From NCBI GenBank assembly GCA_020849425.1, contig JADLGH010000076.1:1-36590 (forward strand): a DNA stretch of 36,590 nt. Reading direction: 5' to 3'. Shown here piece after piece: positions 2,907 to 28,714 of the stretch; position 1 is the stretch's first letter; every line of letters begins with the position of its first letter. The position numbers and the translations under genes were made by a program. The DNA is from Candidatus Dadabacteria bacterium. GTDB lineage: Bacteria > Desulfobacterota_D > UBA1144 > Nemesobacterales > UBA2774. The notes under the pieces were generated by a model that was given only the letters and a program-made list of their open reading frames with translations, had not been told where the DNA came from and made no database searches.

Positions 2907-3038
2907 TGGGATAAACCCGCCCCGGCAAACGGTTAAACGGCATACTTAAAGCGGCTAATCATAAAAGCTCCGGGGTTATATTAAAGAACGGGAATTTCCG
3001 GCCTCTCCCGGGCGGAGGGGGTATAATATAGGCATAGC

Positions 3039-3066
3039 TTGAAAAGACTGCCAGAATTCTTAGAAT
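3039..3066 (+). promoter_or_regulatory. Candidate promoter of the clpX-like/rimO operon
   Basis: TTGAAA (3039-3044), a 16-base spacer and TAGAAT (3061-3066) precede the ClpX-like start at 3089. Spacing and -10 are the same as in the tRNA promoter at 26884. A GAGG Shine-Dalgarno lies at 3077-3080. A second possible -10, TATAAT at 3022-3027, has no good -35. Confidence 0.45.
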
Positions 3067-3088
3067 AATAATCCGTGAGGCGGCGCTT

Positions 3089-4207
3089 ATGAGAAGAGGA
3101 GAGAAGGTTTACTACGTTAAGGATTTCATTCAGACAGTCCCTCTCCCCTCACCGAAAAAGATATACTCGGAGCTCGAAAAGCTCGGATACAGGGGCCAGC
3201 CTCTCGCCCGGAAGGCCGTCTCCCTCGCCTCGTACAGGCACGTCAAGAGACTGAAGCTCCTCCATACGAAAAATATGCCGCGCACCGTTCTGCCGCCCCG
3301 CCCGAACACCATACTCATGGGGCCGACGGGCTGCGGAAAGACATACCTGATAGAGCTACTCTTCGGCGAGATATTCAAGCTCCCCTACGTCATCATAGAC
3401 ATGACGAAGTTCACCGAGTCGGGGTACGTCGGCGACGACGTCGTCAACATACTCGTACAGCTCGTCTACGCCGCCAACGAGAGCATAGACATCGCCGAGT
3501 GCGGCGTCATAGTGCTCGACGAGTTCGACAAGATAGCCGGGGCGTACAGCAGCGCGAGGTTCGCCGGGCAGGGGACGACGAAGGACGTGTCCGGGTACGG
3601 CGTACAGAGGGAGCTCCTCAAGATCCTCGAAGGGACGGACGTCCAGATACCTCTCGACTTCGGATTTTCGAGCCGGGGGCCGAGGGCGCTCATCTCGACC
3701 CGCGACATAACGTTCTTTTCCGTGGGCGCGTTCTCGGGCATACGGAGCCTCCTCGAAAAGCGAAACCTCGGTTTCATGCAAAAGCTCGAAGAGGGACGCG
3801 GCGACGAAGATTCCATCGCCTACAGCATGACGGAAGACGAAGCGGACGACATATCGAAGTTCCACATGTTCGGGTTCCTCCCCGAGCTGATTTCGAGGTT
3901 CAACCGCATAGTGCCGTTTTCGCCGCTCAACAAAAATACGCTCATGGAGATAATCCACATCAAGACCCGGAACTACCAGAGGGAATTCGAGGAAGAGGGT
4001 TTTCAGCTCCGCATCGAGCCGGGCGTCGCCGAATTCATAATCGACGAAGCCGTAAGGCGCCAGACGGGGGCCCGCGGCCTGGATGTTATAATATCTAGGC
4101 ACCTCGAAGAGGTAGCGTTCGAGAACTTCGGCAAGGGAGACGAGGGAGAGATAATCCTTGCGATGGACTCGGGCAAGGTCTCTCACATCTTGAAAAAACG
4201 CGCATGA
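3089..4207 (+). CDS. ClpX-like AAA+ ATPase lacking the zinc-binding domain
   Basis: A 372-residue AAA+ unfoldase-type ATPase closest in motif order to ClpX. It has Walker A GPTGCGKT (78-85), pore loop GYVG (112-115), Walker B VIVLDEFDK (140-148), DVSGYGVQRELLKILEG (166-182), an arginine-finger region PELISRF (Arg270) and sensor-2 TGARGLDVII (Arg329). An LGF tripeptide (227-229) sits where ClpX carries the IGF-type ClpP-docking loop. Two ClpX features are absent: the N-terminal four-Cys zinc domain that recruits adaptors (there is no Cys cluster) and an RKH-like loop, replaced by GFSSRGPRA. It is shorter than the usual ~420 residues. It is co-transcribed with rimO (ATGA overlap). It is probably an accessory ClpX paralogue with altered substrate choice; no clpP is in view. 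HslU is less likely given GYVG and LGF. Confidence 0.85.
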   Translation: MRRGEKVYYVKDFIQTVPLPSPKKIYSELEKLGYRGQPLARKAVSLASYRHVKRLKLLHTKNMPRTVLPPRPNTILMGPTGCGKTYLIELLFGEIFKLPYVIIDMTKFTESGYVGDDVVNILVQLVYAANESIDIAECGVIVLDEFDKIAGAYSSARFAGQGTTKDVSGYGVQRELLKILEGTDVQIPLDFGFSSRGPRALISTRDITFFSVGAFSGIRSLLEKRNLGFMQKLEEGRGDEDSIAYSMTEDEADDISKFHMFGFLPELISRFNRIVPFSPLNKNTLMEIIHIKTRNYQREFEEEGFQLRIEPGVAEFIIDEAVRRQTGARGLDVIISRHLEEVAFENFGKGDEGEIILAMDSGKVSHILKKRA

Positions 4208-5508
4208 AGATATCCATAGTGAGCCTCGGCTGCTCGAAGAACCTCGTCGACAGCGAGATCATGAGCGGAGCTTTAACAAGGTCCGGTCACGAAATCTCGC
4301 CCGAAGACGAAGCCGACGTAATAATCGTAAACACCTGCGGCTTCATAGGAGACGCGAAGAAGGAGTCCATCGACACGATCCTCGAGCTCTCCGAAAGGAA
4401 GGTGAGCGGGAGCTGCCGAAAGCTCATCGTAACGGGATGCCTCGTCGAGAGATACTCCGAGACGCTCAGGAACGAGCTTCCGGAAGTGGACGCCTTCTGG
4501 GGGACGGGGAACCTCCTTAAAATACACGAGGTCCTCGAAGACAGGCGGCCCGGGGCCATACACAAGAACCCGCCGGGGACGATATACGACCCCGACACGC
4601 CGCGCGTCATGCTGACGCCGAGGCACTACGCGTACGTGAAGGTTTCCGAGGGCTGCTCGCGTACGTGCTCCTTCTGCATCATCCCTAAAATGCGCGGCAT
4701 TATGAAGAGCAGGCCCGTCGCCTCGATAGTCGGCGAAGCCGAGGGCCTCGCCAGGCAGGGCGTCCGTGAAATCAATCTCATCGCGCAGGACATGACGAGC
4801 TACGGGCGCGACATCGGGACGAGCCTCGAAACGATGCTCCGCGAATTGGCCGCGGTGGACGGCCTCGGGTGGATAAGGATCCACTACTGCTACCCGTGGG
4901 GGATAACCGATTCGCTCGTCGAGCTCATAGCGCGCGAGGAAAAGATACTCCCCTACATCGACATGCCGCTCCAGCACATAAACGGTCGCGTGCTGAGGGC
5001 GATGGACAGGAAGACCCCGCCCGAGCGAATCAGGGATATATTGAAGAAGCTCCGGGACGGGATAGACGGCGTCGTTCTGAGGACCACCTTCATCGTCGGC
5101 TTTCCCGGCGAGACGGACGACGAATTCGAAGAGCTCCTCGAATTCGTGGAGGAGACGGGATTCGACAGGGCCGGGGCGTTCAAGTACTCGCAGGAAGAAG
5201 GGACGCCGGCCGGCTCGATGGACGGGCAGGTGCCCGAAGAGGTGAAGGAAGAGAGGTACGAGCGGCTCCTCGAAGCGCAGTCGGAGGTTTCGCTCGGGAA
5301 GAACCTCTCCCTCATAGGAACCGTCCACGAAGGGTTCATCGAAGGCGAGGAAAACGGCGATTATATAGCCAGGATACCCTCGCAGGCCCCCGAGGTGGAC
5401 GGATACACGTACGTGAAAAAAACGGGAGAGTTTAAAACCGGCGACCTCGTGAATATAAAAATCACCGACGCCGACGTCTATGATTTGAGGGGAGAGATAA
5501 TCCCTTAA
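4204..5508 (+). CDS. rimO: Ribosomal protein S12 methylthiotransferase RimO
   Basis: Radical-SAM methylthiotransferase that modifies the conserved Asp of ribosomal protein uS12 (beta-methylthiolation). The 434-residue protein has the UPF0004 domain with cluster Cys10, Cys45 and Cys79, then the radical-SAM triad CSRTCSFC (Cys151, 155, 158). IIPKMRG follows the triad, as in RimO rather than MiaB. A TIM-barrel core and a C-terminal TRAM domain (about 370-434) complete it. Its ATG overlaps the stop of the ClpX-like gene, so both are made from one mRNA. The gene runs convergently into cofH with a hairpin between them. Confidence 0.95.
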   Translation: MKISIVSLGCSKNLVDSEIMSGALTRSGHEISPEDEADVIIVNTCGFIGDAKKESIDTILELSERKVSGSCRKLIVTGCLVERYSETLRNELPEVDAFWGTGNLLKIHEVLEDRRPGAIHKNPPGTIYDPDTPRVMLTPRHYAYVKVSEGCSRTCSFCIIPKMRGIMKSRPVASIVGEAEGLARQGVREINLIAQDMTSYGRDIGTSLETMLRELAAVDGLGWIRIHYCYPWGITDSLVELIAREEKILPYIDMPLQHINGRVLRAMDRKTPPERIRDILKKLRDGIDGVVLRTTFIVGFPGETDDEFEELLEFVEETGFDRAGAFKYSQEEGTPAGSMDGQVPEEVKEERYERLLEAQSEVSLGKNLSLIGTVHEGFIEGEENGDYIARIPSQAPEVDGYTYVKKTGEFKTGDLVNIKITDADVYDLRGEIIP

Positions 5509-5576: not shown

Positions 5577-5602
5577 AAGAAGCCGCGTTCCGGCTTCTTT
5601 AA
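5577..5602. terminator. Hairpin between convergent rimO and cofH
   Basis: AAGAAGCCG (5577-5585) and CGGCTTCTT (5591-5599) form a perfect 9-bp stem with a 5-base loop. On the plus strand it ends in CTTCTTTAATT, a usable U-rich tail for rimO. Its 3' arm touches the cofH stop codon at 5599-5601, so it may serve both transcripts. Confidence 0.55.
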
Positions 5603-6801
5603 TTCACCCCGTCCTTATCGAACATCTGGCGAATGCCGTATGTGGTGGTCCTTTCAGCGGGGATTCGGCCTATCTCCCTCGTGAGACGCCTGAACTCCTC
5701 GGGCGGGAAGTACTGCCCGTAGCTGGCGCCGGCGGAGCGCGAAATCTGCTCCTCCATGAGGGTGCCGCCGAAATCGTTAGCCCCCGCCGTGAGCGAGAAC
5801 TGCGCGAACTCGGGCCCCTGCTTCACCCACGACACCTGGATGTTGTTTATCCATCCGCGGAGCATGAGGCGCGAGACGCCGTACATCTTGAGCTGGTTGA
5901 CGTCGCCCGGCCCCTCCTGCACCTTGCCCTTCGAGTGCTTGAAGAGCCTCGTGTTCCAGGGGATGAAGCGGAGCGGGACGAACTCGGTGAATCCGCCGGT
6001 CTCTTTCTGTATGTCCCTCAGTATGCCTATGTGCTCCGCCCAGTGGTGCGGTTTGTCCACGTGCCCGTACATTATCGTGGACGTCGTCCGCATCCCGGCC
6101 TTGTGAGCCTTCTTGACGATCCTTATCCACGCCTCGGTCGGCATCTTGCGGGGGGCGATTATCTTCCTCACTTCCTCGACCAGTATCTCGGCCGCCGTGC
6201 CCGGGAAGGTGTTGTGGCCGACGTCCTTTAACTTCACGATGAAATCTTCTTCCGAAATGCCGAGCGTCTGCGCGCCGTAGAATATCTCGAACGGCGAAAA
6301 GGCGTGCGTGTGCATCTCGGGGACGGCCTTCTTGACGGCCTTTATGAGCTCTACGTAAAAGTTCCCGTCTATGTCGGGGTGCATCCCGCCCTGCATGCAG
6401 ACCTCGGTCGCCCCTATTTCCCAGGCCTCCTTCACCCTGTCCGCTATCTCGTCCATGGAAAGGAAATACGCCCTCTCGTCCCCCTCGGGGGCCATGAAGT
6501 TACAGAAGCCGCAGTACGTGTTGCATATGTTCGTGAAGTTTATGTTCCTGTTGACGACGTAGGTAACGACGTCGCCCACGTCCTCTTTACGGATGGCGTC
6601 GGCCGTTACGGCCAGGGCCGTAAGCTCGTCCGGGTCGGTTATGGCGAAGAGGTGAATAGATTCCTCGACTGAAATCTCCTCCCCCGAGAGCGCCTTGTCC
6701 AGAATCCTTCCCGTGGCGCCGTTCACCCTGCCGAGAACGCCGTCGAGCCCGAGGCCCCTCGTGTCCTGTATGTATGATATGGCGTCTTCAATTCGATCCA
6801 T
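5599..6801 (-). CDS. cofH: F420 biosynthesis: FO synthase subunit 2 (CofH)
   Basis: CofH is the radical-SAM enzyme that makes the tyrosine-derived radical adduct with 5-amino-6-ribitylamino-uracil. Together with CofG it builds the deazaflavin FO, the chromophore of coenzyme F420. The radical-SAM triad is CNTYCGFC (Cys93, 97, 100). Family segments include EVCMQGGMHPDI, TTSTIMYGHVDKPHHWAEHI and FVPLRFIPWNTRLF, which separate it from the MqnC/MqnE relatives. The ATG at 6801 is preferred (400 residues): GAGGAG lies 10 bases upstream, and it overlaps the end of cofG by 14 bases. It is the last gene of cofD-cofG-cofH. In actinobacteria CofG and CofH are fused as FbiC; here they are separate. Confidence 0.92.
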   Translation of the reverse strand: MDRIEDAISYIQDTRGLGLDGVLGRVNGATGRILDKALSGEEISVEESIHLFAITDPDELTALAVTADAIRKEDVGDVVTYVVNRNINFTNICNTYCGFCNFMAPEGDERAYFLSMDEIADRVKEAWEIGATEVCMQGGMHPDIDGNFYVELIKAVKKAVPEMHTHAFSPFEIFYGAQTLGISEEDFIVKLKDVGHNTFPGTAAEILVEEVRKIIAPRKMPTEAWIRIVKKAHKAGMRTTSTIMYGHVDKPHHWAEHIGILRDIQKETGGFTEFVPLRFIPWNTRLFKHSKGKVQEGPGDVNQLKMYGVSRLMLRGWINNIQVSWVKQGPEFAQFSLTAGANDFGGTLMEEQISRSAGASYGQYFPPEEFRRLTREIGRIPAERTTTYGIRQMFDKDGVN

Positions 6802-8068
6802 CTGGGTCTGTCTCCTCAAGCGGCACGTAGCCGAGCTCATCGACCGCCGCCCTCACCCTTTCGAGAAGGGGCGCGTCGATGTATTTCCCATCTATGAATT
6901 CCGGATACACGGGCAGCCTTTCCCTGAGCGTAAAGCCCGCCGCCCCGGAAAGCTCTCTCATGCTTTCGAGCCTCGGCCACGGGGCCTCCGGATTCACGTA
7001 GTCGATCGTTATGGGCGAAACGCCGCCCAGGTCGTTCACGCCGGAATATAAAAAGAGCTGGTACGTCCCCGGGTTAAGATTGGGCGGAATCTGTACGTTC
7101 ATGTCCTTTCCGAAGACGAGCCTCGTTATCGCGACTATCTTCAGCATGTCCACGAAGTCGGGGGGCGGGTATTTCTCCATGATTATCCCCTGCTTCGGGC
7201 AGAAGTTCTGTATGATTAATTCCTGTATGTGCCCGTAGGCGTCGTCGAGGTCCTTTATAGCGAAGAGGGAATCCACCCTCTCTTCCCACGTCTCGCCTAT
7301 GCCGACGAGTATCCCCGTCGTCCACGGGATGCCGAGCTCGCCCGCCGTTTCCATCGTCTTCATACGCTGCTTCGGAACCTTGTCCGGGCACCTGTAATGC
7401 GCCTCGCCTTTCTTTAAAAGGCGCATGCTGATGTTTTCGAGCATGAGCCCCATGCTGGGGTTCGATTTCTTAAAGCCGAGGAGCTCGTCGTGCGTCGCGA
7501 GCCCGAGATTCGTATGGGGGAAAATCCCCTCGTCGAGCGCCGCCGCGCCCATGTCGATGAGATACTCGGCGGTGGTTTCGTAGCCGATAGCGCCGAGGGC
7601 GTCCCTGTACTCCCCGTATTTTAGCTCGGGCTTGTCCCCCGTGACGAAGAGGAGCTCCGTACAGCCGAGCCGGGCCCCTTTGGATGCCATGTCGATTACC
7701 TCGCCGGGCTTCAGGAACAGCGCACCTTCCCCGGGCTCGTATTTAAAGGTGCAGTATCCGCAGTGGTTCCTGCAGAGCTGCGTCAGCGGGACGAAGACGT
7801 TCCGGGAGAACGTGAGCACCCTTCCCTTCCCCCTGTCCCTTATCTCGGACGCGGCGAGGAGTATATAGGGAAGCTCGTCGTTCCCCAAACCGGCGATCGT
7901 AAGGGCGTCTTCCCTGTTTATCGTCTCGCCCGAGAGAGCCTTCTCTATTATGCCCGCCGTCCTTACCGGCGCGGACGCCTCGGCCCCTAGCATGTCCGTA
8001 ATGCCGCGCAAACGGTCGGGAAGGGGAGTATTGTCCCCCGAAGGTATGAGCGCTTCTATATTCTTCAT
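6788..8068 (-). CDS. cofG: F420 biosynthesis: FO synthase subunit 1 (CofG)
   Basis: CofG is the second radical-SAM half of FO synthase (7,8-didemethyl-8-hydroxy-5-deazariboflavin synthase), closing the deazaflavin ring after CofH. The protein has FVPLTQLCRNHCGYCTF with the cluster Cys triad (99, 103, 106 from this start), GCTELLFVTGDKPE, PHTNLGLATHDELLGFK, GIGETWEERVDSLFAI and LNPGTYQLFLYSGVNDLGGVSPIT. From the ATG at 8068 it is 426 residues. An in-frame GTG at 8116 would add 16 residues but has no ribosome-binding site. It is downstream of cofD by about 126 bases, with a weak internal promoter possible there (TTGACT at 8175-8180). Confidence 0.92.
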   Translation of the reverse strand: MKNIEALIPSGDNTPLPDRLRGITDMLGAEASAPVRTAGIIEKALSGETINREDALTIAGLGNDELPYILLAASEIRDRGKGRVLTFSRNVFVPLTQLCRNHCGYCTFKYEPGEGALFLKPGEVIDMASKGARLGCTELLFVTGDKPELKYGEYRDALGAIGYETTAEYLIDMGAAALDEGIFPHTNLGLATHDELLGFKKSNPSMGLMLENISMRLLKKGEAHYRCPDKVPKQRMKTMETAGELGIPWTTGILVGIGETWEERVDSLFAIKDLDDAYGHIQELIIQNFCPKQGIIMEKYPPPDFVDMLKIVAITRLVFGKDMNVQIPPNLNPGTYQLFLYSGVNDLGGVSPITIDYVNPEAPWPRLESMRELSGAAGFTLRERLPVYPEFIDGKYIDAPLLERVRAAVDELGYVPLEETDPDGSN

Positions 8069-8194
8069 ATCAAGAGGCTTTCCCCCGCGGCCCCGCGGAA
8101 GGAATTGTTTTAACACCTGAAAGGCGCTTTCACCCCAAGCGTATCAAGTAATATTCTCACAAACGGGCGGATAAAGTCAAGCCGAACGAAGGCG

Positions 8195-9121
8195 TCAAAG
8201 GAGCGCTGTTACAGCCCTGGCCAGCGCCGCGGCCCTTTCCGGGACGGGCATAAGTATGTCGGTTACGAGGGGCTCGATCCCGAGGTTTTTTATCTCGTCC
8301 GCCTCGTGGGCGTCCCGGGTATCGATGATCATGACGTCGAGGAAATCCCTGTACAGCTCGGCCACCTGCACGGAGGTCACCCTGAGCCCGAGCCCTTTCA
8401 TGAGCCTGTCGGCGGGCCCCTTGAGCGGCGCGTCGCCGATGAGAGGGCTTATGGCTATCTTCCTGGCCCCGGATTCCATTATGGCGTCTCTCACGCGCCC
8501 GAGGCCGAGGATAGGCCCTATGCTGATTATGGGGTTACTCGGGCAGATTATTATCCCCCTCGCCCCCCGGATGGCGTCCAGAACCGCGGGCGTCGGCGCG
8601 GCGTTCTCTATATTTTTAAGGACGACGCCCAGGACCTCGGGCCTCATCCTCTTCTTTACGAGATATTCCTGAAAGTGCATCTCCCCCTCGGGCGTCTCTA
8701 TCCACGTCTCGACGTCGTCGTCGGTCATGGGGAGGACCTTTATGTTGCCGGGCAGGCCGAAAGCGGCCGCGATTTTCGACGCCGTCTCCGTGGCCGTAAC
8801 CCCGCCCGCGCGGAGGTGCGTCCTGAAAATGTGGGTCGCGAAGTCCGAATCCCCGATATTGAACCAGGTTTCCCCGCCCAGCCTCGACAGCGCCGAAAGA
8901 CACCTGAACGTGTCCTCCTCGAGGCCCCACCCCCTCTGCCTGTCCACGTGGCCCGAGAGCCGGTATATGACGGTATCGACGTCGGGAGAGACCCTGAGAC
9001 CGTGGAGAGTTACGTCATCCCCCGTGTTTACGACCGCGTTAAGGGGTTCACTGCCGATTACGGCGGAAAGGCCTTCAAGGAATTTCGCGGCCCCGACCCC
9101 GCCCCCGAGAGCAGTTATCAT
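8195..9121 (-). CDS. cofD: 2-phospho-L-lactate (or phosphoenolpyruvate) transferase CofD
   Basis: CofD joins the activated phospholactyl or phosphoenolpyruvyl moiety to FO, giving (dehydro)F420-0. The 308-residue protein opens with MITALGGGVGAAKFLEGL and continues VVNTGDDVTLHGLRVSPDVDTVIYRLSG, GWFNIGDSDFA-like (TWFNIGDSDFATHIFRT) and IICPSNPIISIGPIL, the hallmark segments of the family. It is the first gene of the F420 operon, with AAAGG about 9 bases before the ATG and a strong promoter upstream. The other F420 genes (cofC/fbiD-type guanylyltransferase, cofE gamma-glutamyl ligase) are not in the window. Whether it uses phospholactate or PEP cannot be told from sequence. Confidence 0.93.
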   Translation of the reverse strand: MITALGGGVGAAKFLEGLSAVIGSEPLNAVVNTGDDVTLHGLRVSPDVDTVIYRLSGHVDRQRGWGLEEDTFRCLSALSRLGGETWFNIGDSDFATHIFRTHLRAGGVTATETASKIAAAFGLPGNIKVLPMTDDDVETWIETPEGEMHFQEYLVKKRMRPEVLGVVLKNIENAAPTPAVLDAIRGARGIIICPSNPIISIGPILGLGRVRDAIMESGARKIAISPLIGDAPLKGPADRLMKGLGLRVTSVQVAELYRDFLDVMIIDTRDAHEADEIKNLGIEPLVTDILMPVPERAAALARAVTALL

Positions 9122-26938: not shown

Positions 26939-27012
26939 GGGCCCATAGCTCAGTTGGTTAGAGCGACGGACTCATAATCCGTTGGTCCCTGGTTCGAGTC
27001 CGGGTGGGCCCA
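26939..27012 (+). tRNA. tRNA with CAU anticodon, probably tRNA-Ile2 (lysidine type)
   Basis: The cloverleaf is complete: acceptor GGGCCCA/TGGGCCC, D-arm GCTC/GAGC, anticodon stem ACGGA/TCCGT with loop CTCATAA, and T-arm CCTGG/CCGGG with TTCGAGT. CCA is not encoded. A CAU anticodon can mean elongator Met or Ile2, in which TilS converts C34 to lysidine to read AUA. The C4-G69 and C5-G68 pairs are reported TilS determinants, and the overall similarity to E. coli tRNA-Ile2, including the TTGGTC variable region, favours Ile2. The dominance of ATA codons in the window fits. A T-rich tract follows at 27025-27033. Confidence 0.9.
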
Positions 27013-28322: not shown

Positions 28323-28714
28323 GTAGAAGCGAGCAGGCCGGGCAGCCGCCGGCGCGCGCTTTCGGGCGCATGCCGGAGGAAAGTCCGAACTCCGCAGGGC
28401 AGAGCGCTGGGTAACGCCCAGGTGCCGCGAGGCAACGGAAAGTGCAACAGAAAACATACCGCCAACGCCCTTCTCACGGAGGGCACGGTAAGGGTGAAAA
28501 GGCAGTGTAAGAGACTACCGCGCCGGCCGGTGACGGCTGGCGGCATTGTAAACCCCGCTCGGTGAAAGACAAAATAGGGAAGCGCTTTTCCTCGTGAAAA
28601 ATATGGCGGCCCGTCGAAGCTTCCGGGTATGTCGCTAGAGGCGTTCAGTAATGAGCGTCCCAGATGAATGGCTGCTCAAGACAGAATTCGGCTTACAGGC
28701 AGGCTTGCTTCTAC
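28323..28714 (+). ncRNA. rnpB: RNase P RNA (bacterial type A)
   Basis: The catalytic RNA of RNase P, which matures tRNA 5' ends. Conserved elements are in the right order: GGAGGAAAGTCC (28375-28386, P4 5' strand region), ACAGAAAACATACCGCC (from 28447), the L15-type GGTAAGGGTGAAA (from about 28487), and the 3' core AGATGAATGG (28662-28671). The outer P1 helix pairs GTAGAAGCGAGC (28323-28334) with GCTTGCTTCTAC (28703-28714). The length of ~392 is normal. The 5' end follows the RNase HI-family stop by 3 bases, and no separate promoter is visible in the gap. The 3' end overlaps the tyrS stop codon on the opposite strand. There is no clear U-run terminator. Confidence 0.95.

Follow-up and report, generated by a model that had tools for sequence, protein, structure and literature searches.

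A ClpX-like AAA+ protein of a distinct clade, lacking zinc domain and RKH loop, probably handles its own set of proteins beside ClpX in Candidatus Dadabacteria

The usual picture for most bacteria is a single ClpX that recognizes its substrates through the zinc domain, the RKH loop, and adaptors. A 36,590-nucleotide stretch of contig C76 from a MAG (G000, 77.6% complete) of Candidatus Dadabacteria, an uncultured bacterial group, here called the window, encodes a ClpX-like protein for which an earlier note claimed that both of these recognition parts were missing while a ClpP-docking-like motif remained. The locus raises the question of whether a second ClpX-like motor operates beside ClpX and, if so, on what partner and substrates it would act. 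A conserved clade in which both recognition parts are missing but the heart of the plug for ClpP is retained would serve as a natural experiment in substrate choice by AAA+ unfoldases.

A ClpX-like AAA+ core

The clpX-like gene (3089–4207; this and all coordinates below refer to the + strand of the window unless marked otherwise) encodes a 372-residue AAA+ ATPase, which we assign to a zinc-domain-less clade on the basis of its open reading frame and translation, Pfam and NCBIfam matches, orthologues, and a tree. The open reading frame is real: it starts with ATG behind a Shine-Dalgarno-like GTGAGG (3076–3081), and its reading frame is conserved at 76–88% identity in the 22 relatives whose orthologue is complete or nearly so, all of them from families f1, f2, and f4. 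Pfam recognizes AAA_2, AAA, and the ClpB_D2-small lid. The best NCBIfam matches are ClpX models, although the score of 200.1 bits against TIGR00382 falls well short of the cut-off of 370.75, as it does for two other members of the clade (198–199 bits). The closest solved structures by sequence are those of ClpX (E 1e-50), and the top matches to the predicted fold are all ClpX or ClpXP chains (best E 1.9e-25, TM about 0.75; AlphaFold2 model with a mean pLDDT of 80.1 and a pTM of 0.79).

The earlier note claimed Walker A and B, the GYVG pore loop, and sensor 2; all of these are found, together with an arginine finger. Walker A (GPTGCGKT, aa 78–85; 3320–3343) is invariant in A1 and A2, and the pore-1 loop GYVG (aa 112–115; 3422–3433), set within SGYVGD (aa 111–116), does not vary among the 22 members from Dadabacteria and the 19 from Myxococcia. 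Walker B (LDEFDK, aa 143–148; 3515–3532) and the sensor 2 motif GARG (aa 327–330; 4067–4078) occur in 22 of 22 Dadabacteria members, and the arginine finger Arg-270 (3896–3898) is likewise invariant. In an alignment with E. coli ClpX, these motifs and an LGF tripeptide match column by column. The likeness to ClpX extends to the overall fold and the DVSG region; the identity between the proteins is about 33–36%.

Absence of the parts that recognize ClpX substrates

The zinc domain of ClpX binds adaptors and some substrates, and the RKH loop grips the ssrA tag. At the place of the zinc domain, the window protein has only a short N-terminal segment (MRRGEKVYYVKDFIQTVP, aa 1–18; 3089–3142), conserved in Dadabacteria and aligned here against the canonical ClpX of sister genomes, which carry CxxC...CxxC. 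No C4 zinc-binding domain was found: the 18 residues that precede the core contain no cysteines, and there is no upstream frame. With just 389 codons from stop to stop, the frame leaves no upstream room in which such a domain could have been overlooked. The RKH position is occupied by a different loop, DFGFSSRGPR (aa 190–199; 3656–3685), and not one of the 41 clade rows from Dadabacteria and Myxococcia has the RKH motif. Instead, FGF(S/T)SR is shared by most Dadabacteria rows and all Myxococcia rows. Both of the claimed absences hold. A further departure from ClpX is the pore-2 region (GAYSSARFAGQGTTKDVSG, aa 151–169; 3539–3595), which the alignment shows to be some 4–5 residues longer than in ClpX and which is disordered in the AlphaFold2 model at aa 153–167.

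Replacing RKH by AAA in E. coli ClpX abolishes degradation of ssrA substrates (PMC7112951), and from this precedent it is reasonable to infer that the substrate set of the clade differs from that of ClpX. Given that two substrate-recognition parts are gone and the core of the likely ClpP plug is kept, this second ClpX-like motor probably handles its own set of proteins.

A clade separate from ClpX, ClpX3, and HslU

A phylogeny of ClpX and HslU, proposed in the earlier note as a check, places the protein outside both. In the IQ-TREE analysis, the members from Dadabacteria, Myxococcia, and the loci L063, L064, and L065 form one clade (bootstrap/SH-aLRT 100/100), separate from HslU and from the ClpX side of the tree, which includes the ClpX3-like rows of the Myxococcus xanthus type (83/40). 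A quick tree of wider scope reproduces this division. The clade has a long stem, so that how it is placed relative to ClpX at depth is uncertain; its separation is not. In whole genomes, a family profile scores members mostly at 395–525 bits versus about 200–220 for canonical ClpX, and at 280–360 bits those rows that are truncated or belong to the most distant members from the Lentisphaerae class. Beyond Dadabacteria, sampling found members in 63 of 145 genomes from the Anaeromyxobacter class (Myxococcia), among them many large genomes, in 5 of 147 from the WOR-3 phylum, and in 4 of 146 from the Lentisphaerae class, where some form tandem pairs. In a search of mostly open literature on Dadabacteria ClpX and on zinc-less ClpX-like families, we found no published work on the clade. 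The clade is a real and uncharacterized ClpX-like variant whose mechanism we infer.

A close described parallel is ClpX3 of M. xanthus (MXAN_2743), an extra copy beside the essential ClpX1 that has neither the N-terminal domain nor RKH and whose deletion renders cells heat-sensitive (PMC11423568). The window protein shares both absences, but equivalence with ClpX3 was rejected on a census of Myxococcia and on the tree. All 11 of the 11 Myxococcia genomes encode four ClpX-like proteins, scoring about 659, 625, 345, and 176–202 bits, and it is the fourth that is the true relative of the window protein. The 345-bit group, matched with ClpX3 by its features (a match starting beyond the N-domain, the absence of RKH, and third place in closeness to ClpX) and not by locus tag, forms a 100/100 group of its own away from the clade and joins ClpX weakly. 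Myxococcus-type hosts carry a clade member that apparently lies outside the published study of three ClpX proteins (PMC11423568). Membership of the HslU family is also ruled out by score and tree. The resemblance to HslU is confined to the AAA+ core, with partial similarity over its first 110 residues, whereas the score against hslU (TIGR00390) is 82 bits for a cut-off of 362.45; the genome has its own separate HslU on contig C31.

Canonical ClpX and ClpP in the relatives

The claim that this is a second ClpX-like protein is upheld by the relatives, 21 of 22 of which have a canonical ClpX alongside the clpX-like orthologue (in G005 and G015 only as a partial match). In those relatives for which its sequence was examined, the canonical ClpX has its zinc domain and adjoins ClpP. 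Only G026 departs from the pattern, with no ClpX or ClpP of canonical type in its assembly. The clpX-like gene itself is not adjacent to clpP in Dadabacteria. We also considered a dedicated second ClpP and rejected it: a single ClpP with a canonical score is present in the relatives, G030 adds a distant partial match (1.6e-21), and no ClpP2 tracks the clpX-like gene.

A candidate loop for docking on ClpP

The feature on which a partnership with ClpP would depend is an IGF-type loop at aa 219–246 (3743–3826), in which LGF (aa 227–229; 3767–3775) aligns with Ile-268, Gly-269, and Phe-270 of E. coli ClpX and Leu-233 is the equivalent of Val-274. In E. coli ClpX, the side chains of Ile-268, Phe-270, and Val-274 pack into the ClpP clefts, the I268L, F270L, and V274A mutations each cause severe ClpP-binding defects, and changes in the length of the docking loop lower the affinity for ClpP (PMC7112951).

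The docking-like character claimed for LGF stands for part of the loop. Gly-228 and Phe-229 are the only invariant residues across aa 218–248 (50 of 50 clade rows, four phyla), and in 21 of the 22 members from Dadabacteria position 233 holds a hydrophobic residue; most members outside Dadabacteria in the analyzed set have no hydrophobic residue there. The tripeptide as a whole drifts, with VGF in 12, MGF in 4, LGF in 3, and AGF in 3 of the 22 Dadabacteria members (window protein included), whereas canonical ClpX from Dadabacteria genomes with a clade member has IGF in 19 of 20 cases. Nor is LGF peculiar to the clade: it is one of the usual motifs of canonical ClpX, as in ClpX1 of the Myxococcus type. 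The loop from GAF to the tripeptide is 11 residues long versus 15 in the ClpX of the same genomes, a shortening by 4 residues. The predicted structure was checked for burial of residues 227–229 and has instead a long, disordered loop at aa 219–246 (pLDDT < 50), so that these residues are not buried, although such low confidence is no proof of a docking loop. The ClpP docking cleft, including Arg-192, is conserved in these Dadabacteria genomes. It is alike in those with and without the clpX-like gene and so gives no sign of co-adaptation.

Docking is partly supported by the invariant Gly-Phe pair, the hydrophobic residue at the Val-274 position, and the conserved ClpP cleft; it is counted against by the severity of I268L in E. 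coli, when the first residue in the clade drifts to Val, Met, or Ala, and by the shorter loop. On balance these sequence features make docking on ClpP somewhat likelier than its absence, and the interaction would probably be weaker than that of ClpX.

Non-proteolytic roles of ClpX exist, such as the remodeling of MuA, and the same observations could describe a chaperone that works independently of ClpP, disassembling or reactivating complexes without proteolysis, with the Gly-Phe pair kept as a structural relic or as a relic of some other partner. The shortened docking loop, the loss of the optimal first residue, and the lack of linkage to clpP in Dadabacteria all favor such a protein. It would leave unexplained why Gly-Phe alone, in a loop that varies elsewhere, is the same in all members from four phyla and why hydrophobicity at the Val-274 position is so well kept in Dadabacteria, and we regard it as possible but doubtful.

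A proposed role as a second ClpP partner

The explanation that we favor, with somewhat more confidence than doubt, is that the protein is a hexameric AAA+ unfoldase and translocase of a clade akin to true ClpX but long since diverged from it, and that it serves as a second, probably minor, ClpP partner alongside ClpX with clients of its own. Substrates would be threaded by its pore loops, and it would most likely dock on the single ClpP of the genome through the shortened loop with its hydrophobic residue-Gly-Phe core. As the zinc domain and the RKH loop are both missing, ssrA-tagged or adaptor-delivered substrates of ClpX should not be taken. Its own clients may be selected by the conserved loop FGF(S/T)SR at the upper end of the pore together with the lengthened pore-2 loop. 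In Dadabacteria, co-translation with RimO (below) would probably reflect sharing of an operon and not a fixed functional pair. A broader form of this proposal, which we put forward tentatively, as less likely than not, is that a hitherto unrecognized clade of ClpP partners, spread over at least four phyla, works with neither zinc domain nor RKH and would therefore degrade substrates separate from those of ClpXP, bearing a degron of their own read by FGF(S/T)SR, and that the Dadabacteria set may include ribosome-assembly proteins.

The link to rimO

Directly downstream lies rimO, encoding the ribosomal protein S12 methylthiotransferase (4204–5508; TIGR01125, 500.8 bits for an equivalog cut-off of 356.95), which overlaps the clpX-like gene by 4 nucleotides (ATGA, 4204–4207). 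The coupling noted earlier is therefore real, and a comparison of gene order across relatives finds rimO directly downstream at 18 of 20 assessable Dadabacteria loci, 15 of them with the 4-nucleotide overlap, while the genes upstream change between Dadabacteria families. It was, however, observed in Dadabacteria alone, and it is dispensable there. Two genomes (G022 and G028) retain the clpX-like gene and have no rimO that we could find, and the clpX-like gene is missing from families f3 and f7 and from genome G029, all of which have rimO. No rimO adjoins the clade member at the WOR-3 loci or is among the recurrent neighbors in Myxococcia, where most copies adjoin a treZ-like gene; WOR-3 copies lie elsewhere. 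As an obligate partner, RimO is contradicted by these genomes. An accessory unfoldase specific to RimO, which would open S12 or a pre-30S particle or service the Fe-S enzyme itself, would account for the persistent overlap amid changing upstream genes, but given the genomes in which either gene occurs alone and the copies in other phyla, we consider it unlikely.

The two genes likely form a unit with its own promoter. Six aligned upstream regions share a TATAAT −10-like element (3022–3027), in which GGTATAATA is invariant and which in several relatives is an extended −10 with an upstream TG, and a second promoter-like element, TTGAAA-16 bp-TAGAAT (3039–3066), whose core positions are invariant in the six genomes.

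Several minor observations concern this neighborhood. An 89-residue open reading frame (2576–2845, −), divergent from the clpX-like gene and kept in several f1 relatives, has a start that looks like a signal peptide by eye and has no Pfam match. On the other side, rimO adjoins an F420 cofactor biosynthesis cluster, with cofH, cofG, and cofD in a row (5599–9121, −), all above their NCBIfam cut-offs and syntenic in family f1. Farther along the window are a tRNA (26939–27012, +) and a class A RNase P RNA (28330–28711, +). No RimO match at E 1e-60 was obtained in f5, f8, and most of f6, mostly smaller genomes, in contrast to most of f1, f2, and f4.

Distant clade loci and the assembly gap

Some distant members of the clade keep company with defense-type genes. 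In an Anaeromyxobacter MAG (L065, 6649–9029), two adjacent members of 441 and 352 residues, with overlapping genes, lie near an oppositely oriented CARF RtcR-PspF2 regulator; a tandem pair also occurs in the Lentisphaerae-class genome L265. In L064 (5248–7149 and 11539–14376), a 633-residue member with a long N-terminal extension has both an SMC-like ATPase and an MzaC/Z1-type protein close by, in a setting that resembles a defense island, and in L063 an apparent AbiE-like pair, judged by eye, stands beside the clade member. These loci could suggest a defense-associated AAA+ ATPase that was domesticated in Dadabacteria, but the copies in Dadabacteria and Myxococcia are widespread and stable beside metabolic genes, PADLOC gave no strong match (best E 4e-7 over 80 residues of the AAA lid, to DolB, a generic AAA similarity), and phage and plasmid records yielded nothing above the level of identity shown by canonical ClpX, which makes such an origin very improbable. 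A phage or plasmid origin of the gene was rejected on the same matches.

A search of the G000 assembly itself, as suggested by the earlier note, returned no ClpX above the cut-off and no ClpP. The 8.2-kb tig-clpP-clpX-lon region of G001, from the same genus, is matched in G000 only by 660 flanking bases (C71, 571–1230) at the end of that contig and by dispersed repeats; the block is wholly missing, and the operon is unassembled in G000. The absence from this assembly would be all that speaks for the protein as the organism's own, merely divergent ClpX, a reading we find scarcely credible given an incomplete assembly with a gap exactly here, a same-genus genome (G001) that has clpP-clpX as well as a C-terminal fragment (94%) of the clpX-like gene, and a tree position outside ClpX. 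On the gap and the relatives we rejected the idea that the genome has no other ClpX, and the tree and the relatives refute the form of it in which a zinc domain has escaped annotation. A dispersed repeat of about 150 bp, in tens of copies that are roughly 75–88% identical, occurs on contigs C57, C79, C3, C74, C99, and others, with none reported in the window contig, and it also flanks the lon/clpX/tig region of G001.
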